Assembly: GCA_023134715.1 (NCBI GenBank)
Contig: JAGLUP010000004.1
Span: 1-64,000, forward strand
DNA: 64,000 bases
From: Candidatus Parcubacteria bacterium
GTDB lineage: Bacteria > Patescibacteriota > Minisyncoccia > Minisyncoccales > JAGLUP01
Reading direction: 5' to 3'
Part shown: piece by piece, positions 1 through 61,890 of the stretch
How positions within the stretch are numbered: the stretch's first letter is position 1
Layout: each line of letters begins with the position of its first letter
Notes under the pieces: model-generated
Told to the model about the DNA's origin: nothing
Database searches by the model: none
Seen by the model: the letters and a program-made list of their open reading frames with translations, nothing else
Position numbers and translations under genes: made by a program

Positions 1-254
1 ACCTTAATTCTTACTGTTTTGTCAGAACCAATGCCTGTTGAACCTTCATCTGTGTAGACAGTGCCCGAGACAGTAGTGGTGGCTGCTGCTCCTGCCGCTT
101 CCGTAATAACATAAGGCGCTCCTTTCAACCAATCATAATTAGTGGTATCGGTTTGAACAGGTATGCCTAAAATCCAGTCATATTGGGCAGCTGAAGCTAT
201 TCCCGCTATCCCTGATAAAAAAATTATTAAAATAATAATTAAAACTTTCTTCAT
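1..254 (-). CDS. Exported protein, N-terminal part only (runs off left edge)
   Basis: The first 84 codons of a minus-strand gene are present and remain open to the window edge. The N-terminus is a clear signal peptide: MKK, a run of Ile/Leu/Val, then GIASA followed by AQ, a good signal peptidase I site. The visible mature part is Thr/Ser/Gly-rich and matches no family I recognise. Its ATG overlaps the TGA of the upstream giant surface protein (TGATG), which implies translational coupling and a shared role at the cell surface. The function is unknown. Confidence 0.75.
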   Translation of the reverse strand, partial: MKKVLIIILIIFLSGIAGIASAAQYDWILGIPVQTDTTNYDWLKGAPYVITEAAGAAATTTVSGTVYTDEGSTGIGSDKTVRIK

Positions 255-3200
255 CATTCAATGACTGGTTTAATGTCCACATAAATGCCTTTGCTCGCTT
301 CATATTTTTTAAGATAAACTTTAACATAAACCCAGCCCGCCTGCACAGGAGTAAAAGTTGTGGTAAACGCAACCCAAGTTGTTTCGTCTGATAAAACTTG
401 CGTAGAAGCGGTAGATGTCGCCCTTTCCGCCGAACCCGCGTCATCCCAGTATTCTGCCTGAATGTATAGCTCTGAATTAGTAGGATATGATGACCAAACG
501 CCTAAGGAACGGATATAAACTGTTACTGTGGTAGCTGCTGCTGATGCCCAGACAACAAAATCTCCTCTGTCTAAATCAGATGATAATCTTAAAGGATAGG
601 TTGAAGTGCAGGTACTATTAGGTTCAAGTTTAGCTGAAGAACTTGCTCCCCCGCTATGAGTAACGCCCGTGTCTTTTGTTACTGTCCCGGCTTTATACCA
701 GCTTTTGCTTGCTAATTTGGTTCCTCCATAATCTTCAATTTTTACAAAACTTCCATAATAAGCGTTTTCAATATTTTCAACTTTTGTAGCGCTGTCTAAT
801 TTACCGTTCCCTCTGACATAAGCTTGAACATTTGAAGCCAAGTATATATCCCTGCTGGTATTATTTCCTATGGTTCCTCCAAACTCACAGTCATCAAGTA
901 TAATACTAGTCGCTCCGCTCACATGAAACCCCGTAGTACATGCATAAGCTTTGCAGTTAGAATAACTTCGTTGAACTGAATGTCTCACCGCAAAACCTGC
1001 ACCACAATCAATCGCAATACAATTAGTATGTTTTGCGCCAGAACTACCGTCAAGTATGTCAAATCCGTTAGCTGAGTGATACATGGCAATACAATTCTCC
1101 CTTTCTTCTCCTAGTTGAGCGCGAAAAAAAGCCAAATAACCACCGTCATAACTAAAAACATTTTCAATCTTCAGATTATTCGCACCCCAATCCAATACTA
1201 ATGTAGCATAAGGATTAGATCCCCCGCCTGCGCGATAACTTCCTGTAAACACTGAATTTTTAAGGGGAATCGCGACATCAGTACTGCTTATCTTTAAAGC
1301 TTGAGATGACCAATGTCCAAGCTCTTTAAACAAGGCGCAGTCAATGTTTAAATCTCCGCCCGAACTAACATTTACATCGCTTTGATAGCTTGCGGAATTT
1401 GTTTCTTCAATAACAGCGTTTCTGGTTAAGTTGATAATATAAGAGCCAGTGACATGAGTGTTGGAAAGATTCCCGGTTAAAGTAATTGTTGTTCCCGAAA
1501 CACTTGAAATAGTCATTTTTTCTGATTCTCCGAAAGAGTTGCCGCCAACTCCGAGAATATCACCGGCAACCCAGCCGGTTGTATCTGAAGTTATTAAATC
1601 AGCTTGACTTGAAGTAGCGTTTGAAGCAAGGGTTGTTTTATAATAACTAAGAACAGCCCCATACATATTTAAAGCCCCGCCGCTATTAACAGTTAAATCG
1701 CAGGCGTCATCAGCGCTTGAATTAAATTTAAGAGCCGCTGTATAAGAAGACCCGATTCTGGCTCCGGAAGTTCCAATGCTCAAAGTCCCTGTAATAGAAG
1801 TTGTACCGTTAGTAGTAAGAGAAGTATCAGTACTGTTAAGAAAAGTAAGCGTGCCGCCAGAGTTTATTGTCAAGCTTGAGGAGGTAGCGTTGCTAACATT
1901 TACAGTTACAGTATGAGTGTCTAAAATTGTAACATCATCCGCTGAAGTTGGAACCACTCCGCCGCTCCAAGTTGAGGTTGCGTCCCAGTTCCCAGTTTGA
2001 GCTGAAGATATTGCCGCGTCCACGGCAATCTGCCACGAACGAAGCTCCTTAAACACTAAACTGTCACTATGAAATTCAAGAGGTCCCAGCAAATATAAGT
2101 AGGGGCTGATGTCTGGCGCGTCAAATTGATATTTTAATTCATACTCTTCCCCCGCTTCCCAATCAACCTGCCATATAATTTCTTTTGTATTTTCGTGTGG
2201 TTTCGTGTTCAGTTTCGTGCCTGTTTCGTGTACTACCTCAAAGCTCGCAGGCGCACTTTCTATTACCTGCCCGACGAAATCTTCATTCGCCTTAATTTTT
2301 AATGTTACCTCATAAAACGCCGGGGGATAAATCCTTGTCGGCCCGATTCTCTCAACATCAAAAGCAACCGATTCACGAACCTCAAAAGAGTCAAAAATTT
2401 CACGAACGCCGTTTCGGGTAATCGCTGTTAAATAGAGCTCATATAATCCCAACTCATCCGGGATATCATAATATGCATAGTAATCAGGGGTATTGGTAAT
2501 AGTGCTTGGCCCGCATTCTGAACTTCTCTGAATTGTTTCGTCTTCAGTTGAAAATTCCTTCTCAACTCCTGCCGGACTTTTTACTATCAGAGTCAAATCA
2601 GCGTTGCAAATTGTTTTTCCAATATCATCTAGTACTCCCATTTGAATATAAGCAGAGCTGTCACTGCCTGATAGATATATCGACTTGTTTATATTTATAG
2701 CTAAAACCCCCCATGTAAAATCTTGTTCTGAAATCAATATCGCTTCATCAGTTTCAATCTCAATCTCCATCTTCCATTTGCCCGGATAAAAATCTCTTCC
2801 CGGTTTTGGAATTTTTATTTCAAACCCTTGTTTATTATCAATAAATTTAGTAATCACATGGGCTTCAATTAAAGATTCCTGGCCCATAGGGTTAAAAATT
2901 TTAATTCTGAAATTATTCGGTTCTACTTGAGCCGCAACTTGAGGAACAAAAACAATTTTCTTAATTGCTTTTTTCATCGCCCCTATTATTTCCCCGCCCG
3001 CCTGATTGTCCTCAGGACTTTCGGCGGGTTCCGTGGTTGTGGCTATCTCTTCTGTAGTAGTTGCCACTGCTTCCATGGTCTTAGCTTCCTCGCCCGCCTG
3101 ATTGTCCGCCCCGTAGGGAACCGCAGGTTCTCCTTCGGGGTCTGGACTTTCGGCGGGCTCAATAATAATTATTTCATTCTGCGCAGGAGTATCGGTTTCA

Positions 3201-5347
3201 AGAATGCTGTCGTCAGGCAAAGCTGGCTCCCCGCCCGCCTGATTGTCCGCAGGACTTTCGGCGGGCTCGCCATCTTCTCGATTAAAAATTGGTTCTAAAA
3301 CATTTTCAATAACTTCTTCAACTATCCCGTCAATAAATTCTTTTATCGGCTCAATTATTGAAGCTGTTCTTGTTTCTTGATTCTTATAAAACTCGCCTTC
3401 TATAATTTCCGCCTCGTTAACATTAACAAGTTCTTGAAGCTGCTTGACTGTAAATTCTGGTTCTTTAATTACAAAAACCGGCTCTTCATTAGAATGAAAA
3501 CTTTTCTCGCCAAGAGGAGAAATCAATAAATGACTATCTTTAATCCTTATTCTTGGCTTGTCTTTTGTGTCGATTTCATGTTTAGTTTCGTTTTCTTTCG
3601 TGTAGCTCGCCTCCACCCAGACACTGTCAAGATAAGCCGTAATATTTGTTTCGCCTCCCACTGTTCCATCAAACTTAATTTTTAAATTTTTAATGCCTTC
3701 TTCACTTTTTAAAAGAGGAGCTTCGTATTCAAAATAGCCATGATTTAAAGCATTAGACAAGGGAGAAGAAGAAATAATCCCGAGCTTATCCCATGATTCG
3801 CCATCTAAGGAATACCAGATAATAATCTTATCATCAATGTTAGATAAAACCTCCGGATGTTCGTCCTCTATATTTTCTTCAGCTTCAACTATTATTAAAT
3901 CTCCAATCCCCTTAACCGCTTCTTCAAATTTGCTTCCCCAAGTTTTAATTCGGCTTATTGATTTTTTGAAAGAATTCCAAAAGCCCACTGGCTCTTCTAA
4001 TAAAATGTCCTGTTCTTTTTCACCAAGAGCAAAAGAAAATTTAATTTTTGCTGATTGAAAAACTTTATTTTCCTGAGCTTGAACTAAACCTATGGAACCA
4101 AAAATATTTTTTAATTCCCTTTTCGCTTTCTCAAAAAATGAAATCGGCTCATCAGAAATTACTGGCTCAGAAATAATTTCATCAGCTGCTTCTATCTCTT
4201 CTGTCGTTGTTGCCTCTATTGTCTCCTCAATAATAATTATTTCATTCTGCGCAGGAGTATCGGTTTCAAGAATGCTGTCGTCAGGCAAAGCTGGCTCCCC
4301 GCCCGCCTGAATATCTGCCCCGCCTGCATCGCTATGCGAAGCATTGCGGGCAGGAAGATTTTCGGCGGGTTCCGTGGTTGTGGCTATCTCTTCTGTTGTT
4401 GTAGCTATCTCTTCTGTTTCACTGACCTCCTCTATCGCCACATCCTCTTCTACCTCAGTTAATTCTTCCACAAATTCATCAATGCCAGTATCTGTCTCAA
4501 CATCGTCATCACTCAACTCTTCACTGACAAACTCTCCGCATATTAATGTAAGCGCCCCTGTTTTATAAACAGCTGAATTTGCTTCAGAAAAATTATTAAT
4601 ATCTCCATTGGACAAAACATCAGGCGGCCCTTGCGCATTTTCTGAATTTTGCCAACCACCCGTAAATTGAGTCGGATAAAAATTAATAATCTCTGTCTCC
4701 CCTCCTGTAATGGCCGTGATAACAGAATTTTGTAAAAATTTTATAGGAGCAAAACCAGAAAGTAAAAACAATACTACAAAAGCCGCTAAAGCAAATCTCC
4801 AACCAAATTGAAAAGTTTTTATAGTTTTTATATGTTTAATCCACGGGATTAAACAATTTTTAATTTCTGAAATTTGCTTTTTTAATTTTTTAAACGCAAC
4901 TACTTTAAACGCAACCACAGGAATAGGAACTGACACACGTCGGGTCTGTGTTAATTTTAAGGTTTTTCTATTTTTATATTCCATCACTGCTCTTTTTGTA
5001 GTTTGTAAAGAAACTCCAGAATAAGCTTTTCTTCCTTTGAGCTTTCCCTCGCGAATCAAAAAACCAATATAGTCAGAACTATAACCAGAAATTTTTGCCG
5101 CTTGTTTTAAAGAAAGATATCTTCTCCTCAATAAAGAAGAAGAATCTCGGGTAGCGAGATTTTTTGTTTTTTTACAGCATTTTATTATCTCTTTTGGAGT
5201 AATTTTCCAAGAACTTTTAAGAGAAATTTTTCTCCCTTTTATTTTTTTCTCCCGAATTAAAAAACCAATATGGTCAGAGCTATAACCAGAAATTTTTGCC
5301 GCTTGTTTTAGAGAAATATATTTACTTTTTTCTTTGTTTTCTTTCAT
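254..5347 (-). CDS. Giant membrane-anchored surface protein with two N-terminal HTH motifs
   Basis: This 1697-residue protein starts with two near-identical helix-turn-helix-like segments (about residues 10-40 and 76-107; both contain SLKQAAKISGYSSD). A basic stretch and one transmembrane helix follow (about 181-200). The HTH part is therefore predicted inside the cell and the rest outside. The exterior has Glu/Thr/Pro-rich linkers (ATTTEE, EPAE), beta-sandwich-like regions, and from about residue 1115 a G8-like/beta-helix region (NWDATSTWSGG, then many Ser/Thr/Gly repeats). Four palindromic elements and an 85-nt duplication lie in the linker-coding DNA. It could be an adhesin or cell-surface layer component. 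Whether the HTH motifs bind DNA is open. No catalytic motif is seen. Confidence 0.8.
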   Translation of the reverse strand: MKENKEKSKYISLKQAAKISGYSSDHIGFLIREKKIKGRKISLKSSWKITPKEIIKCCKKTKNLATRDSSSLLRRRYLSLKQAAKISGYSSDYIGFLIREGKLKGRKAYSGVSLQTTKRAVMEYKNRKTLKLTQTRRVSVPIPVVAFKVVAFKKLKKQISEIKNCLIPWIKHIKTIKTFQFGWRFALAAFVVLFLLSGFAPIKFLQNSVITAITGGETEIINFYPTQFTGGWQNSENAQGPPDVLSNGDINNFSEANSAVYKTGALTLICGEFVSEELSDDDVETDTGIDEFVEELTEVEEDVAIEEVSETEEIATTTEEIATTTEPAENLPARNASHSDAGGADIQAGGEPALPDDSILETDTPAQNEIIIIEETIEATTTEEIEAADEIISEPVISDEPISFFEKAKRELKNIFGSIGLVQAQENKVFQSAKIKFSFALGEKEQDILLEEPVGFWNSFKKSISRIKTWGSKFEEAVKGIGDLIIVEAEENIEDEHPEVLSNIDDKIIIWYSLDGESWDKLGIISSSPLSNALNHGYFEYEAPLLKSEEGIKNLKIKFDGTVGGETNITAYLDSVWVEASYTKENETKHEIDTKDKPRIRIKDSHLLISPLGEKSFHSNEEPVFVIKEPEFTVKQLQELVNVNEAEIIEGEFYKNQETRTASIIEPIKEFIDGIVEEVIENVLEPIFNREDGEPAESPADNQAGGEPALPDDSILETDTPAQNEIIIIEPAESPDPEGEPAVPYGADNQAGEEAKTMEAVATTTEEIATTTEPAESPEDNQAGGEIIGAMKKAIKKIVFVPQVAAQVEPNNFRIKIFNPMGQESLIEAHVITKFIDNKQGFEIKIPKPGRDFYPGKWKMEIEIETDEAILISEQDFTWGVLAININKSIYLSGSDSSAYIQMGVLDDIGKTICNADLTLIVKSPAGVEKEFSTEDETIQRSSECGPSTITNTPDYYAYYDIPDELGLYELYLTAITRNGVREIFDSFEVRESVAFDVERIGPTRIYPPAFYEVTLKIKANEDFVGQVIESAPASFEVVHETGTKLNTKPHENTKEIIWQVDWEAGEEYELKYQFDAPDISPYLYLLGPLEFHSDSLVFKELRSWQIAVDAAISSAQTGNWDATSTWSGGVVPTSADDVTILDTHTVTVNVSNATSSSLTINSGGTLTFLNSTDTSLTTNGTTSITGTLSIGTSGARIGSSYTAALKFNSSADDACDLTVNSGGALNMYGAVLSYYKTTLASNATSSQADLITSDTTGWVAGDILGVGGNSFGESEKMTISSVSGTTITLTGNLSNTHVTGSYIINLTRNAVIEETNSASYQSDVNVSSGGDLNIDCALFKELGHWSSQALKISSTDVAIPLKNSVFTGSYRAGGGSNPYATLVLDWGANNLKIENVFSYDGGYLAFFRAQLGEERENCIAMYHSANGFDILDGSSGAKHTNCIAIDCGAGFAVRHSVQRSYSNCKAYACTTGFHVSGATSIILDDCEFGGTIGNNTSRDIYLASNVQAYVRGNGKLDSATKVENIENAYYGSFVKIEDYGGTKLASKSWYKAGTVTKDTGVTHSGGASSSAKLEPNSTCTSTYPLRLSSDLDRGDFVVWASAAATTVTVYIRSLGVWSSYPTNSELYIQAEYWDDAGSAERATSTASTQVLSDETTWVAFTTTFTPVQAGWVYVKVYLKKYEASKGIYVDIKPVIE
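2997..3028. repeat. RPE-like palindromic element, copy 1 (inside surface-protein CDS)
   Basis: The outer arms are CCCGCC and GGCGGG and the inner arms GTCC and GGAC, with an asymmetric internal loop (TGATT against TTTC). It is read in frame as part of a PAESPEDNQAGG segment of the host protein. It is closely related to the elements at 3234-3265 and 41245-41276. Confidence 0.75.
3093..3157. repeat. RPE-like palindromic element, copy 2, with a nested hairpin
   Basis: The outer arms and inner GTCC arm match copy 1, but about 33 nt containing a second palindrome (CCCCG...GAACC-GCA-GGTTC...CGGGG) occupy the loop. The reading frame is kept and encodes a PDPEGEPAVPYGAD segment. Confidence 0.65.
3158..3242. 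repeat. 85-nt direct duplication, copy 1
   Basis: This block is repeated with essentially no change at 4226-4310 in the same gene and ends inside a palindromic element in both places. It encodes a linker containing EPALPDDSILETDTPAQ. The near-identity suggests recent duplication or conversion. Confidence 0.85.
3234..3265. repeat. RPE-like palindromic element, copy 3
   Basis: A 32-nt element with arms CCCGCC/GGCGGG and GTCC/GGAC, differing from the copy inside rpoD by about one base. It is read in the Pro-Ala-Glu-Ser frame. Confidence 0.8.
4226..4310. repeat. 85-nt direct duplication, copy 2
   Basis: Second copy of the block at 3158-3242, in the same orientation and reading frame of the giant surface gene. 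Confidence 0.85.
4302..4369. repeat. RPE-like palindromic element, copy 4, diverged and with a nested palindrome
   Basis: The outer arms CCCGCC and GGCGGG are kept. The interior contains another imperfect palindrome bounded by CCGCCTGCATCGC and GCGGGCAGG, giving an in-frame NLPARNASHSDAGG segment. The nesting parallels copy 2. Confidence 0.6.
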
Positions 5348-6611: not shown

Positions 6612-8198
6612 CTAAAAAGAAATTTCAAGGGCAGTGGCTACACTAGCTAAAAATTGTTTGATTGTTTCAAAAAATGTTTGCGGTTCCTCAAAAAAAGGAG
6701 CTGCTTCTTCTGACTGTGGTTCTTGCATAGGCGCAAATTCTTTTTGAGGCATCATCATACCTTGTTCTGGAGGTGTCATTTCTATATATCCTTCTGGAGG
6801 TGTCATTTCTATATATCCTTCTGGAGGTGTCATTTCTATATATCCTTCTGGAGGCGTCATCATTTGTTTCATTTTCTCTGCGTCTTCCGAACTCATCATG
6901 CCTTCTTTGACAGAAAAATTAAAACATTCTTCCATATGTTCAGGATTATCGCAATACGCTTTGCATTCTTCCGGCGTCTGACAACCGCCCGGACCGCCTG
7001 GACCCTCTGGTCCAATTTTTTTAACCATTTCAACTTCTTCCGGCTTTACTAATCCCATTTTCTGACCAAATTCCATACATTCCTGCATATGTTCCGGGTC
7101 TTGACAATAAGCATCACATTCTTCCGGCGTCTGACAACCGCCCGGACCGCCCGGACCGCCAGGCCCAAATTGTTCTCCTATTTTTTTTGTCTCTTCTGCT
7201 TCTTCAGAACTCATAAACCCGGCTTTAACAGCAAATTCCATACATTCCTGCATATTATCAGGATTATTACAATATGCTTCGCATTCCTCTTTTCCCTGAC
7301 ATCCGCCAGGACCGCCAAAAATTCCTGCTTTCGCCATCTTCCTTACTTGTTCTGCTTCTTCAGAGCTCATAAACCCGGCCGCCTCGCCAAAATTAACACA
7401 CTCTTCCATATGCTCTGGCTGGGAACAATAGATGTCGCATTCTTGTTTGTTTCCACACATCGGCGGTTTAATGCCTTTTTCCAATGCCTGAAGCATCATT
7501 CTTGCCTCTTTTTCTTCCTCTGCCGGCATAAGTCCATACTTAAGACCAAACTCTATACACTCTTTCATATGGTCTGGGTTATTACAATAAGCATCGCATT
7601 CCTCTTTTCCCTGACATCCGCCTGGTCCTTTCCCTCCGGTCTTACGAATCATTCCTGCTTCTTCAGAGCTCATAAACCCGGCCGCCTCGCCAAAAGTAAT
7701 ACATTCTTCAAGATGTTCTATCTGAGAGCAATAAATATCACACTCTTGTTTTCCGCGGCAAGGAGGTGGTTTTACTCCTTTTTTAATCGCTATTAGAGCT
7801 TGTTCTGCTTGGGCAAGTTCTTCCGGGGGAATCAAGTTATGCTCTTTGCCAAAAATAATACACTCTTCCATATGCTCCGGCTCATCACAATATATCTCGC
7901 ACTCTTCCTGACCTTGACAGCCGCCTGGGCCAGCCATTGTCTCGAGCATCTCGAGCATTTTCCTGTCTTTTTCTATTTCTTCCTGAGAAAGTAAATTATG
8001 GGCTTCAGCAAAATCAAGACAGGCCTTAGTATTTTCTTCTAAATCGCAATATGCCTCACATTCCTCCATACTGACGCAATTTCCTAATTCAGGAATAGGA
8101 AAATTAACATCAGATAGCAAATCCTCCTCAGCAAACGCAAAACCGCAAAAACCTAAAAAAATAAAAGTAAAAATAAAAACAAAATAAACCTTTTTCAT
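6612..8198 (-). CDS. Secreted Cys-rich repeat protein (eight 4-Cys repeats)
   Basis: The 528-residue product has a signal peptide (hydrophobic core to FAFA, then EE). Eight degenerate repeats of about 50 residues follow, each with a C-x5-C-x3-C-x8-C core (for example CQGKEECEAYCNNPDNMQEC), 32 cysteines in all. A typical repeat continues EEC-x-x-F and ends in a Ser/Glu-rich helix (FMSSEEAE). Near the C-terminus PPEGYIEMT is repeated in tandem. The regular cysteine spacing suggests disulfide or metal-binding modules outside the membrane. I know no function. The gene has its own terminator and precedes the DUF167 remnant. Confidence 0.8.
   Translation of the reverse strand: MKKVYFVFIFTFIFLGFCGFAFAEEDLLSDVNFPIPELGNCVSMEECEAYCDLEENTKACLDFAEAHNLLSQEEIEKDRKMLEMLETMAGPGGCQGQEECEIYCDEPEHMEECIIFGKEHNLIPPEELAQAEQALIAIKKGVKPPPCRGKQECDIYCSQIEHLEECITFGEAAGFMSSEEAGMIRKTGGKGPGGCQGKEECDAYCNNPDHMKECIEFGLKYGLMPAEEEKEARMMLQALEKGIKPPMCGNKQECDIYCSQPEHMEECVNFGEAAGFMSSEEAEQVRKMAKAGIFGGPGGCQGKEECEAYCNNPDNMQECMEFAVKAGFMSSEEAEETKKIGEQFGPGGPGGPGGCQTPEECDAYCQDPEHMQECMEFGQKMGLVKPEEVEMVKKIGPEGPGGPGGCQTPEECKAYCDNPEHMEECFNFSVKEGMMSSEDAEKMKQMMTPPEGYIEMTPPEGYIEMTPPEGYIEMTPPEQGMMMPQKEFAPMQEPQSEEAAPFFEEPQTFFETIKQFLASVATALEISF
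6766..6861. repeat. 27-nt coding tandem repeat
   Basis: About 3.5 near-perfect copies of a 27-nt unit encode PPEGYIEMT in the Cys-rich protein. Slippage would change the length by nine residues at a time without breaking the frame. Confidence 0.85.
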
Positions 8199-21041: not shown

Positions 21042-21085
21042 TTGTATAACACATATACCACGATCGTTGTATGTGTGTTATACAA
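21042..21085. repeat. Family D inverted repeat, copy 1
   Basis: The arms TTGTATAACACATATAC and GTATGTGTGTTATACAA (16 of 17 pair) flank a CACGATCGTT centre. An almost identical 44-nt element lies at 56738-56781 upstream of the MFS transporter. Confidence 0.8.
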
Positions 21086-21151
21086 ATAAAAAATAAGAAT
21101 TGGGCTAAATTTTGCAAATTTCTCTCAATTTTTTTACAAGCTATAGAATAT

Positions 21152-40057: not shown

Positions 40058-41296
40058 TTAGTAGCCGCGAAGTTTTTTTAGTTTTTCGTGTTCTCTGATT
40101 TTTTGAAGGGACTTGGCTTCAATTTGCCGAATTCTTTCTCTGGTAACGCTAAATACCACTCCCACTTCTTCCAAAGTATGAGTAATATCATCCTTTAAGC
40201 CAAACCTCATTGACAAAATCTTTTGCTCACGCGGACTTAAATCAGATAAAATCTCATTCAATCGCTCTCTTAAAAGCTTTCGCGCCGCGCCCAAATAAGG
40301 CGGAGCTGTTTTTTCATCTTTAATAAACTCTGCCAAAACATTATCTTCTTCTTTTTCTCCAACCGGTGTTTCTAAAGAAATTACTTCTTGAGAAATTTTC
40401 ATTATGTGGCGAACTTTGGGAATACTAAGTTCCATCTCAGCCGCGACTTCTTCTGGCAAGGGTTCCCTGCCCAAGCTCTGCAAAAGCTGCTGCCTAACTC
40501 TGGTATATTTAGAAATTGTTTCCACCATGTGAACTGGAATCCGCACAGTTCGAGCGTGGTCGGCTAAAGCTCTGGTAATTGCCTGCCTTATCCACCAAGT
40601 AGCGTAAGTAGAAAACTTATATCCCCTTCTCCAGTCAAATTTTTCTACTGCCCGAAAAAGCCCTAAATTTCCTTCTTGGATTAAATCAAGCATGGTTAAA
40701 TTTGGCGACCGTCCGACATATTTCTTAGCGATAGAGACAACTAATTTCAAATTCCGCCAAATCATTTTTCTTCTTGCTTCATCGTCTCCCTTTTCAATTC
40801 TTTTAGCTAATTCTTTTTCCTCTTTAGCAGTCAAAGATTGCGATCTGCCAATTTCTTTTAAATAAATTTGAATTGGATCTATTTTTGCCCGGCCTATTGT
40901 TTTAACCGGCTTTTCTGAATCTTTTTTTATTTCTAAAAATTCTTTTCTGTCTTTTATTTCAATTCTTTCCTGCTCTAATTTATAATAAAGATCTTCTAAA
41001 TTTTCAATATTTTGTTCTATATTCGGAAAAAAGTTTAAAATTTCGGCAAGAATAACAAAACCCCGCTGCCTTCCCCTTTTAATTAAAGAAGCGACTTTTC
41101 CTGCGTCTAATTCCCGACGGCCTATTCGCTTTTTAGGTTCTGCTTTTTTAAAAACCTTCTTTTTTATTCTTTTCTTTATTGTTTTTTTCTCTACTTTTTT
41201 CTTGGTCGGTTTTAAAATCTTTTTCTTTTTTTGAAGTTTTCTTGCCCGCCTGATTGTCCGAAGGACTTTCGGCGGGTTGATTTTTTTCTTAATCAT
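40058..41296 (-). CDS. rpoD: Primary sigma factor (sigma-70 family)
   Basis: The 412-residue protein has a Lys-rich N-terminus, region 1.2/2 ([75 protein letters not shown]), region 3 and region 4 ([15 protein letters not shown] ... [28 protein letters not shown]). Residues 3-14 are encoded by a palindromic element that also occurs in the giant surface gene in another frame. It overlaps dnaG by 4 nt, giving the classic dnaG-rpoD pair. Confidence 0.95.
41245..41276. repeat. RPE-like palindromic element, copy 5 (inside rpoD)
   Basis: The 32-nt sequence with arms CCCGCC/GGCGGG and GTCC/GGAC is almost identical to 3234-3265 in the surface gene. Here it is read in a different frame as [13 protein letters not shown], a basic segment that fits the Lys/Arg-rich N-terminus of the sigma factor. 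Confidence 0.85.
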
Positions 41297-43041
41297 ATTA
41301 ATTCTTGTGTTAATTTATTAAACTCTTGAGTCAGGGTCTCAACCTGCTCTTTATTATTTTCTTGCTCAGCTTTTTTTATAGCCAAAGAAATTTGATCTAA
41401 TCTTTTCTTTACTTCTAAATTTTGAATTTCTCTCAAGCAAATTTGTATTTCTTTTTTTGGTTCTTCTTCCTGCTCCAACTCTGCCATTAAACAAAGCTCG
41501 TTTAAAAAATCAGTCAAATGAGAAGGAAATTTTTCAAGCAGGGCTTTATCCTGAAAATTAAAATTTGGAATCTGTTTCAGAATAGATAATATCTCTTTTG
41601 TTTGTGAAGAAAAAAAAGATAAAAACTTTTCCTCAATAAGAGATAAATCCTGCGGTCTTTTTAAAATTAAAGAAATAATTTTTTCTTCCAAAATCTCTTT
41701 CCTGGTTTTACTTGGTTTGCCCTGAACCTCCCGATTTATCGGGATGGTTTGCGGCTTGTCCTCTTGAATTTTCTTCATTTCAATATCTATATCTTCTTCT
41801 TTTACTCCTAATTTTCCGGCTAATTCTTGAATCCAATGGGATTGCTCAATCCGATTAGGAATTCTTTTGATAATCGGCAAAAGAATATTGGAAATTCCTT
41901 TTTTTCCTTCCGGCGTCTGGCAGTCAAATTTAGAAAAAGTGGTTTTAAAATAAAAATCTAAAATAGACAAAGCTTTTTTAATAAGTCCCTCCCATTCTTT
42001 AGGATTTTGAGAAACAACATCTGCTGGATCTTTTCCTTCAGGCATTATCGCTACCTTTATATTAAACCCCTGCGCTTGAGCTAAGTCAATACCTCTCTTT
42101 GTCGCCGAATCGCCGGCAGTATCCATATCAAAAGCAGTAATTAAATTATTAGAATATCTTTTCAAAAGACCTAATTGATATAAAGTAAGGGCTGTGCCTG
42201 ATGTGGCAGCTACATTTTTAAGCCCTGCCTGACAGGATAAAATAACATCTGTCTGGCCCTCAACTAAAATACAAGCGTCTTTTTTCCTTATTTCCATTTT
42301 TGCTTTGTCTAATCCGTATAAAATTCGGCTCTTATCATAAAGCAATGTGCTGGGAGTATTCACATATTTTCCTTGCCCATCTCCCTCCTTGCCAAATGTC
42401 CTGCCGGTAAATCCAACCACCTGACCGCTTAAATCAAAAATAGGAAACATTATTCTTGCCCTAAACCTATCATACCATTTTACAGCGTCTTTTTTTATCG
42501 CTAATCCAGATTTTTCAATCTCTTGTCTTTTATATCCTTTGCCTACTAAAAAATCAGAAAGGCCCTGCCATGTTTCTGGCGCGTAGCCAATCCGCCAGGT
42601 CTCAATGCTTTTTTCGCTTATTCCTCTATTTAAAAGATATTCTTTCGCTTTTTTTCCAACCTGCCCCGCTTCCAATTGTTTCTCAAAAAAACTACAGCTC
42701 ATATCGCAAATTTCATAAAGCCGCTGACGCTCTGTTACTAATTTTGGGTCTATTTTCTTCAGCTGAATCCCGGCTTTTTGAGCTAAAATGCGCAAAGCAT
42801 CGCCAAACTCTACTCCCTCAATTTTCATTACAAATTTAAAAATGTCGCCTCCTTCGGAACATGACCCAAAACAATGCCAAAGCTGGCGGGACGGAGAAAC
42901 AAAAAAAGAAGGATTTTTTTCTGAATGAAAAGGACAAGGCGCCCGAAAATTAATCCCGGCTTTTTCCAATTTAATATAGCCGCCAATTACCTCAACTATA
43001 TCCAGCTTATTTTTAATTTCTTCAATCGGCGAATTAATCAT
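41293..43041 (-). CDS. dnaG: DNA primase
   Basis: The 582-residue primase has a CHC2-type zinc-finger domain ([38 protein letters not shown]), the RNA polymerase core ([42 protein letters not shown]) and TOPRIM residues ([42 protein letters not shown]). A helical C-terminal domain follows a linker. In the linker the DNA contains a 14-nt palindrome (41730-41743). The gene is followed by rpoD and preceded by mscS with 1 nt overlap. Confidence 0.95.
41730..41743. repeat. Short palindrome CCCGATTTATCGGG inside dnaG
   Basis: A perfect 14-nt hairpin with arms CCCGAT/ATCGGG lies in the linker between the TOPRIM-type core and the C-terminal domain. It resembles the apical hairpins of Families A, B and C. 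Confidence 0.45.
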
Positions 43042-47599: not shown

Positions 47600-47602
47600 A
47601 AA

Positions 47603-47740
47603 AGAAAACGCAGAAAACAAATTTTTCAAGGCGAAAATTCTGTATTTTCTGAGACGCGTAGGGCTCCCTCCCGATAGGTGGAAGCTATCGGGATGGGATA
47701 AAGCGCGAAGAAAAGACAGAATTTGAGCAAGAAAAATTTT
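47603..47740. repeat. Family B structured repeat, copy 1
   Basis: The core GCGAAAATTCTG ... GAGACGCGTAGGGCTCCC is followed by the apical hairpin CCCGATAG...CTATCGGG (47670-47692) and the closing part GGATAAAGCGCGAAGAAAAG, then ACAGAATTTGAGC. Its 5' flank (GAAAACGCAGAAAACAAATT) matches Family A. It fills the lemA-htpX gap. Confidence 0.85.
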
Positions 47741-56717: not shown

Positions 56718-56781
56718 TTGTATAACTTTGCATAACATTGTATAACACATATAGCACGATCGTTGTATATGTGTTATACAA
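56718..56781. promoter_or_regulatory. Array of TTGTATAAC boxes with Family D inverted repeat, copy 2
   Basis: TTGTATAAC (56718-56726), TTGCATAAC (56728-56736) and TTGTATAAC (56738-56746) recur at a 10-bp period. GTTATACAA follows in inverse orientation at 56773-56781. The last two bound a 44-nt inverted repeat (16-bp arms, CACGATCGT centre) almost identical to 21042-21085. The array lies between two divergent promoters and looks like a multi-site operator. Confidence 0.65.
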
Positions 56782-56815
56782 AAACAAACAAAAAATAAAT
56801 TGGTTGACGTTGGGA

Positions 56816-60077: not shown

Positions 60078-61778
60078 ATGTATAAATCAACAAAACACCA
60101 ACAATTTAAAAAACCAGATAACCTGCGAATTATTCCTCTCGGCGGGCTTGGCGAGGTTGGACGAAATATGACGCTTTTTGAATACAAAGGCAAGATTTTA
60201 ATTATTGACGTAGGCCTGCGAATGCCGGAAGAAGATATGCCGGGAATAGATTTTATTATTCCAGATATCAGCTATCTTAAGAAAAAACAAAAAAATATCC
60301 TAGGTATTGTCTTTACTCACGGCCATTATGACCACATCGGCGCTCTCCCCTATCTTGTTGAGAAATTAGGCAATCCCTTAATGTTTGCCTCCAAATTAAC
60401 TAAGGGAATTATCCTAAAAAGACAGGAAGAATTTCCTTTTAAGTCAAAGTTGGAAATTGTAGAAGTGGAAGATAAGTCCCGAATTAAATTAGGACCCTTT
60501 AAAATTGAATTCTTTCATCAAAACCACAACATTCCGGGCAATTTGGGTCTTTTTATTCAAACGCCAGCTGGAAATATTGTTCATACCTCTGATTTTAAAT
60601 TTGACAAAACTCCGATAAATGAAGCTCCTGTTGATTTTAATTATTTAGAACAAATAGGCAGGCAAAAAATTCTTCTCTTAATGTCTGATTCAACAGGGGC
60701 AGAAGAAAACGGGCGATCTCTTTCAGAAAGTGATATTTCTAAAAATTTAGAAGAAATTTTCAAAAACGCGCAAGGCAGAATTATTTCCGCCACTTTTTCT
60801 TCTTTAATTAATCGGATTCAGCAAATTATTTCTCTCTCGGAAAAATATAAAAGAAAAGTCGCAATAGAAGGATATTCAATGAAAAACAATATAGAACTCG
60901 CGAGGAATTTAGGATATCTTAAGATCAAAAAAGAAATTATTATTTCTACTAAAGAAATTAAAAATTATCCTGATTCCAAGGTAACTGTTCTCTGCACCGG
61001 CGCTCAAGGAGAAGGCCGCGCGGCTCTAATGAAAATCGCCAATAGAGAACACCGCATTCTGCGCCTGAAAAAAAATGACACAATTATTTTTTCATCCTCT
61101 GTTATCCCGGGAAATGAACGAACTGTCCAAATTTTAAAAGACGAACTCTACAGGCAAAAAGCAAAAGTTTTTCATTATAAAATGATGGATATTCACGCGG
61201 GCGGCCACGCCAAGCAAGAAGAACTGAAAAAAATGATACAGCTGATAAAGCCAAAATTCTTCCTCCCTATCCATGGCCAGTATTCTATGTTAGTAAGCCA
61301 TGCTGAACTTGCTCAAAGCGTTGGCATTCCTCAAAAAAACATAATAGTTATTGAAAACGGCCAAGCAATTGATTTGAATGTTCAAGGATTTTCTTTGGAT
61401 AAAAGAAAAATTCCTTCAAGCTATGTAATGGTTGATGGATTAGGAGTCGGAGACATAGGCGAAGTAGTATTGCGCGATCGCCAAGCGTTGGCTGAAGATG
61501 GAATGTTTGTTATAATTGTAGTTATTGACAGGCAAAAAGGCAAAGTCAAAGGAAGTCCTGATATAATCTCCAGAGGATTTGTTTATCTTAGAGAATCAAA
61601 AGGACTGCTTCAGGAAACCCGGAAAAAAGTAATTGAAATAGTTGACAAAGCAGCTGGAACAGGAGGCGCGGTAAACTGGGTTTATGTAAAAGATGAAATC
61701 AGAAACAAAATCGGCCAATTTTTCTTTTCTAAAACCAAACGCCGACCAATGATCTTGCCTGTAGTAATTGAGGTCTAA
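60078..61778 (+). CDS. rnj: Ribonuclease J
   Basis: The RNase J-type metallo-beta-lactamase/beta-CASP nuclease has the family opening RIIPLGGLGEVGRNMTLFEYKGKILIIDVG, the zinc motif FTHGHYDHIGALPYLVEKLG, SDSTGAEENGRSLSE, STKEIKNYPDSKVTVLCTGAQGEG and the beta-CASP HAGGHAKQEELKKMIQLIKPKFFLPIHG. RNase J carries out 5'-3' RNA decay. I chose the start at 60078 because the earlier in-frame codons lie in tRNA-Leu. Confidence 0.93.
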   Translation: MYKSTKHQQFKKPDNLRIIPLGGLGEVGRNMTLFEYKGKILIIDVGLRMPEEDMPGIDFIIPDISYLKKKQKNILGIVFTHGHYDHIGALPYLVEKLGNPLMFASKLTKGIILKRQEEFPFKSKLEIVEVEDKSRIKLGPFKIEFFHQNHNIPGNLGLFIQTPAGNIVHTSDFKFDKTPINEAPVDFNYLEQIGRQKILLLMSDSTGAEENGRSLSESDISKNLEEIFKNAQGRIISATFSSLINRIQQIISLSEKYKRKVAIEGYSMKNNIELARNLGYLKIKKEIIISTKEIKNYPDSKVTVLCTGAQGEGRAALMKIANREHRILRLKKNDTIIFSSSVIPGNERTVQILKDELYRQKAKVFHYKMMDIHAGGHAKQEELKKMIQLIKPKFFLPIHGQYSMLVSHAELAQSVGIPQKNIIVIENGQAIDLNVQGFSLDKRKIPSSYVMVDGLGVGDIGEVVLRDRQALAEDGMFVIIVVIDRQKGKVKGSPDIISRGFVYLRESKGLLQETRKKVIEIVDKAAGTGGAVNWVYVKDEIRNKIGQFFFSKTKRRPMILPVVIEV

Positions 61779-61890
61779 AATTTTTGAATGCGAAAATTCT
61801 GGATTTTCTGAGACGCGTAGGGCTCCCTCCCGCCTTGGCGGGAAGGGATAAAGCGCGAAGAAAAGACAGAATTCGAGCAATGAAAAAAAA
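61777..61890. repeat. Family B structured repeat, copy 2
   Basis: The core is the same as the copy at 47603 (GCGAAAATTCTG ... GAGACGCGTAGGGCTCCC ... GGATAAAGCGCGAAGAAAAG). The apical hairpin is CCCGCC-TT-GGCGGG (61829-61842) instead of the CCCGATAG type. It lies between rnj and trpS. Confidence 0.85.

Follow-up and report, generated by a model that had tools for sequence, protein, structure and literature searches.

A short palindromic DNA repeat is read in several frames inside unrelated genes of Patescibacteria

How does one palindromic DNA sequence come to lie in genes as different as those of a sigma factor and a giant surface-type protein, and to be read there in different frames? The question arises from a 64,000-nt stretch of contig JAGLUP010000004.1 (hereafter the window) from assembly GCA_023134715.1 of an uncultured, ultra-small Candidatus Parcubacteria bacterium, in which a first-pass annotation made from the letters had pointed to a 32-nt element in rpoD. 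We recovered this imperfect palindrome, here called F1, at exactly 41245-41276 on the minus strand, where it forms codons 6-17 of rpoD in frame 1; the plus strand carries the letters CCCGCCTGATTGTCCGAAGGACTTTCGGCGGG at these positions, and rpoD reads F1 from the minus strand. A short foot tag, CAAG in sense orientation (plus strand CTTG; 41241-41244, minus strand), follows directly 3' of the GGCGGG end. Gene identity is secure: the host gene (40058-41296, minus strand) encodes a sigma-70 factor of 412 aa with Pfam regions 1.1, 1.2, 2, 3 and 4 and orthologues in 40 genomes. Since its ATG overlaps the stop codon of dnaG as ATGA, F1 lies inside the coding sequence. RpoD proteins are about 57-71% identical within the order, and in the orthologue comparison their N-termini were too variable across the order to yield an exact empty site. 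The adjoining dnaG holds another palindrome, CCTCCCGATTTATCGGGATGG, at 41727-41747 of the window.

The second host gene in the window (254-5347, minus strand) encodes a 1697-aa protein with a G8 domain, which we call surface-type from its composition. Four copies of the 32-nt element had been reported in it. Two of them, at 2997-3028 and 3234-3265 (both minus strand), are indeed intact and are read as PAESPEDNQAG and PAESPADNQAG, respectively, the latter being our reference copy with 0 mismatches to the sense consensus. The other two are not 32-mers and are each interrupted, in frame, by a nested palindrome. The copy at 3093-3157 (minus strand, 65 nt, hairpin z -6.0) harbours a palindrome of a family named F3, CCCCGAAGGAGAACC..GGTTCCCTACGGGG, at 3109-3143 (minus strand), which swaps out 2 nt of the F1 loop for a net gain of 33 nt, the boundaries being taken from the alignment with an intact F1 copy. 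The copy at 4302-4369 (minus strand, 68 nt, hairpin z -4.9) is lengthened by 36 nt through an F4 palindrome, CCTGCCCGCAATGCTTCGCATAGCGATGCAGGCGGG, at 4319-4354 (minus strand), which encodes PARNASHSDAGG; F4 is nested at the identical position of the F1 loop at L014:8712 and C5:202005. A 93-nt flanking stretch is duplicated inside the surface gene at 97% identity, and thus the four copies are not independent insertions. The stretches flanking F1 are also common to a second surface gene on C5. At 6612-8198 of the window, a 528-aa protein consists of repeats of a unit about 50 codons long, plus a 27-nt tandem repeat.

Is F1 more than a local repeat? Its pattern matched nowhere in 100 dinucleotide shuffles of the window and nine times in the 761-kb genome, as opposed to 0 matches of the reversed control. 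The genome was searched with such patterns and with a covariance model of the element plus 10-nt flanks, and stretches of it were sampled; the full-genome search, proposed with the first-pass annotation, yielded 21 model copies at E < 1e-3. The weakest of these matches include hairpins of sister families in ComEC-like, MurD and PheT genes, so that strict F1 copies number about 16-17. Hosts of F1 are rpoD, uL22, a glycerate-kinase-type gene, the two surface genes, a coiled-coil membrane protein, an ORF on C3 and a membrane protein on C6. By far the commonest is frame 0, used in the surface proteins, uL22 and the C8 and C3 ORFs; rpoD uses frame 1, while the glycerate kinase and the C6 membrane protein use frame 2. 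The earlier reading that the similarity lies in the DNA, across unrelated genes and differing frames, therefore held, with all three frames represented and F1 not conserved as protein. Neither of the two outcomes that would have spoken against it, an rpoD insert conserved as protein where the DNA repeat is missing or a lack of further copies, was found.

About 18 of the 21 model copies lie in ORFs, which is close to the coding fraction of 0.85-0.89. Three copies (C5:131858, C5:132574 and C5:202005) are outside clear genes, the first two of them in a local duplication; in this region of C5 (131.3-133 kb), two identical degenerate copies lie 716 nt apart, suggesting such a duplication. Read in sense, F1 is free of stop codons in every frame; read in antisense, in two of three. 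Intragenic copies were sense-oriented in all 16 distinct host genes across genomes (p ~3e-4, given three sense and two antisense open frames), a bias from which tolerance of the encoded peptide probably emerges as a filter on surviving copies. The C6 copy has about 30 nt of flank in common with rpoD; hence, more than the bare hairpin is sometimes copied. The hairpin itself measures 32 nt, and about 45-52 nt when conserved flanks are counted.

Conservation of F1 is one of pairing. With its arms CCCGCC/GGCGGG and GTCC/GGAC, the F1 hairpin scores z = -4.2, and each strand folds as single-stranded DNA at z ~-4. Among 18 distinct F1 copies, 97% of the alignment cells pair, and three stem pairs have changed on both sides, in seven such cells (G-C to A-T or C-G, T-A to C-G); the covariation score was reached by 0 of 500 shuffles. 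For a copy read in frame 0, going from T-A to C-G entails a D to G exchange, giving PAESPAGIQAG. As a compensatory change is thus bought with an amino-acid change, it is the pairing that is kept and not the peptide.

Other genomes carry near-identical F1 DNA: in Ca. Staskawiczbacteria it lies in the NusA tail, trigger factor, bL19 and a giant protein, in genome G220 in ArgS and one further gene, and in Ca. Giovannonibacteria in YebC. The NusA copy of genome G347 is identical to the copy at 3234 of the window, although RpoD proteins are just about 57-71% identical within the order. A scan of genomes with the core pattern gave matches in Patescibacteria only; within the class, F1 was present in 5 of 383 genomes at three mismatches, and it was absent from the genomes sampled in other classes of the phylum. 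Viral spread was considered as well and rejected, the core pattern finding no match as an exact pattern among 2.9 million viral contigs. The C-terminal tails of NusA in one family (L062-L091) show many peptides that look palindrome-derived (RTLTPSDSEG, PAPSEAEGE, SAKAS), suggesting a favoured landing site.

F1 has company in its own genome. F2, read as PA[F/S]AKA[T/S]AG, is found in uL22 and GatA; F4, read as PARNAS.SDAGG, in TsaD, in HolB and nested in F1; and F5, 38 nt long, in PheT (frame 2) and MurD (frame 1), the two copies being identical at 37 of 38 positions. RpoD N-termini of other genomes carry F1-like, F3-like and nested F4 elements. In four conserved genes, insertions of at least 9 residues were more hairpin-forming than control segments of the same length from those genes (p = 4e-8). 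Nine of 20 clusters of CCCGCC/GGCGGG hairpins with interiors other than that of F1 bear C[AG][AG][AG] at one foot, compared to a background of 5.75% (p = 6e-7); these statistics were computed on loci other than those fetched by the flank-containing model. The conserved foot tag accordingly reads CRRR in sense and YYYG on the other strand. Such common ends and tag on unrelated interiors point to one recognition or mobilising machinery, which, judged from the sequences of few clusters, would probably handle all tagged families. More tentatively, these families might form a single superfamily with common ends and tag but unrelated interiors, mobilised in Patescibacteria by one undescribed system. 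Such a superfamily would cross family and order borders and give core proteins new loops in place of native residues; if this is true, inserts in these reduced genomes would generally be able to evolve from it.

Further palindromes and repeats were seen. In the TsaD of genome G036 (L144), a 26-residue insert near the C-terminus corresponds to a 78-nt hairpin that contains further hairpins (-50 kcal/mol). A palindromic repeat, TTGTATAACACATATA..TATATGTGTTATACAA, apparently intergenic, occurs at 21042-21100 and 56738-56796 of the window and in L016 at about 1654 and 14952, and a repeat of about 110 nt, GACGCGTAGGGCTCCCTCCCG...GATAAAGCGCGAAGAAAAGACAGAATT, stands twice at gene ends (47602-47736 and 61778-61886 of the window).

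What does an arriving element do to its host gene? Presence and absence among relatives was observed both for sister families, in trigger factor, and for F1, in ArgS. Within one family, the trigger factor genes of G432 and G453 carry clean palindromes of 36 nt (between CCA and GAA) and 30 nt, respectively, which other orthologues do not have. The expectation of a clean gain at exact boundaries was thus borne out for sister families and not for F1 itself, which usually stands in for native loop residues. In the trigger factor of G275, two palindromes, one of them F1, take the place of the missing native loop FPENSPRKDLAGKEG. The ArgS of G220 has F1 while two genomes of the same genus do not, with a net difference of +3 residues against G819. 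The glycerate kinase with F1 comes to a net -1 residue against PDB 1x3l, GatA with F2 to about +1 against 3h0l, and in YebC, F1 sits at the junction where about 74 native residues shrink to 22 (net about -52). F1 therefore appears to have a tendency to replace native sequence in ArgS, glycerate kinase, trigger factor and YebC, the same-genus ArgS comparison being the strongest and those with distant PDB homologues weak. Replacement rather than addition of residues is not what simple insertion predicts. No target-site duplication was evident for F1; a possible LAG..LAG repeat was seen at the trigger factor insertion of G453, which is a sister palindrome.

Observed directly, F1 is a DNA repeat in multiple copies, frames, genes and lineages, with a conserved structure, presence and absence among orthologues and nesting of one family within another. 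We are confident, without regarding it as settled, that it represents mobile DNA of the REP/RPE type, a single family of short, non-coding palindromes, which is copied as DNA and does not avoid genes. F1 would copy itself to new genomic sites, genes included, and the three sense and two antisense open frames would allow read-through in place. Copies might then survive where a peptide of 11-12 residues lands in a tolerant loop, linker or tail, the hydrophilic PAESPADNQAG presumably being the best-tolerated frame. Mobility may act on single-stranded hairpins, because compensatory change keeps the pairing and a fixed tag marks one foot. Active transposition, a single-strand intermediate and a common enzyme for all families are what we infer from these observations.

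For the way in which copies are inserted, capture during recombination or repair is a serious rival. Hairpin fragments from own or taken-up DNA could be joined in where DNA breaks or through microhomology, at the cost of a local deletion, with the element as junction filler. The native residues missing where F1 sits in ArgS, glycerate kinase, trigger factor and YebC are consistent with such a route, as are the rpoD flank of about 30 nt on the C6 copy, the sequences that two surface genes share on both sides of F1, the lack of a visible target-site duplication or of a dedicated transposase tied to F1, and the presence of a ComEC-like gene (identified by eye). A fixed foot tag and common ends over unrelated interiors, however, imply a defined and recognised unit, sister families show clean insertions, and loop length varies among distant homologues anyway. 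Taken together, we consider this route possible, though the less probable one.

A known enzyme would be at hand if F1 were an ordinary REP element, moved by the tyrosine transposases (RAYT/Y1) that these genomes encode. In its size, its imperfect palindrome and its foot tag on one side, F1 is REP-like, and Y1_Tnp genes occur in the own genome and in 52 of 100 genomes from its order. Yet, GGAGCTTAGCTCC hairpins bracket the RAYT of the own genome, and several others in the order are likewise bracketed, each time by their own palindromes; a tagged F1-type element flanked the gene at 0 of 31 RAYT loci, and the F1 tag is neither GTAG nor CGTC. This explanation is hence unlikely, and we rejected RAYT as the F1 mobiliser on the grounds that the flanks of the examined RAYT genes are free of F1. 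The RAYT/Y1 transposase gene on C6 (L010, 75.2 kb) lies between CCCACGGAGCTTAGCTCC-type hairpins, and several RAYT genes in the order are arranged alike with other palindromes.

The constant sense orientation and the conserved pairing would also suit a functional RNA hairpin, regulatory or stabilising, under selection in transcripts. Against it stand the arbitrary position within genes, the unrelated hosts and the orthologues that do without the element; moreover, the limits set by open frames already favour the sense orientation, which leaves this alternative very improbable. Spread of a conserved PAESPADNQAG linker by protein-domain shuffling would account for the prevalence of frame 0, the 16 of 16 sense-oriented host genes and the recurrence in surface-protein linkers, but it is hardly credible given that rpoD, glycerate kinase and the C6 ORF use other frames, that some copies are intergenic, that residues are sacrificed to stem pairing (D to G, PAESPAGIQAG) and that unrelated palindromes show the same pattern.

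Protein-coding palindromes have classically been a curiosity of Rickettsia and Wolbachia, and are found here in a large, mostly uncultured bacterial group. For Patescibacteria, we found no published description in the open-licence literature, the scope of a search that most subscription journals lie outside; within it, the early remark that such elements are undescribed for this kind of genome stands. Several families in proteins of transcription, translation and replication suggest a recurrent route by which mobile DNA adds or swaps loops in essential proteins. This explains odd low-complexity inserts in predicted proteins (PARNASHSDAGG, PAFAKATAG, PAESPADNQAG), and such palindrome-derived inserts can lead alignments, phylogenetic trees and predicted structures astray.

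How does F1 relate to systems already known? The first-pass annotation had seen in it the hallmark of Rickettsia palindromic elements (RPE), which are palindromes of 105-146 bp that code for protein in frame (PMC2229807); similar elements are known from addA, addB and priA of Wolbachia (PMC4224334). As a working analogy this is apt: like F1, the RPE and Wolbachia elements are palindromic, multi-copy, in frame and free of stop codons, they are located in genes that are conserved and unrelated to one another, and they have no known mobility enzyme. A further trait of RPE, one DNA in more than one frame, is found in F1 (frames 0, 1 and 2) and in F5 (frames 1 and 2). Membership does not follow, however, as the 32-nt F1 is set apart by the described size of 105-146 bp (PMC2229807) and its tag is unlike those of REPs; F1 also belongs to a different phylum, often replaces native residues and comes in nested families.

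In the MITEs with reading frames (ERIC/RU-1, NEMIS, RU-2, RU-3), F1 has counterparts that are likewise short non-autonomous repeats able to fuse in frame to genes. Those MITEs, however, measure about 100-200 bp and have terminal inverted repeats and mostly target-site duplications or TA ends (PMC2229807), none of which were seen in F1. In REP elements, the GTAG and CGTC superfamilies include intragenic members in other phyla, and the CGTC repeats comprise RPE-4 and RPE-6 of R. conorii, which are REP-sized (PMC3733652). REPs resemble F1 in being imperfect palindromes of 20-40 nt, one foot of which bears an unpaired tag; there are intragenic ones that are read through in replication and repair genes, and the CGTC type is without a known transposase (PMC3733652). 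They differ in their tag (GTAG or CGTC versus CRRR in sense, YYYG on the other strand) and in being mainly extragenic, while F1 is mostly intragenic; GTAG REPs go with RAYT genes and F1 does not (0 of 31 loci flanked), and REP dimers have no noted equivalent in F1. Although its sequence and end signal are its own and no enzyme that mobilises it was identified, F1 works like Rickettsia palindromic elements and intragenic REPs.
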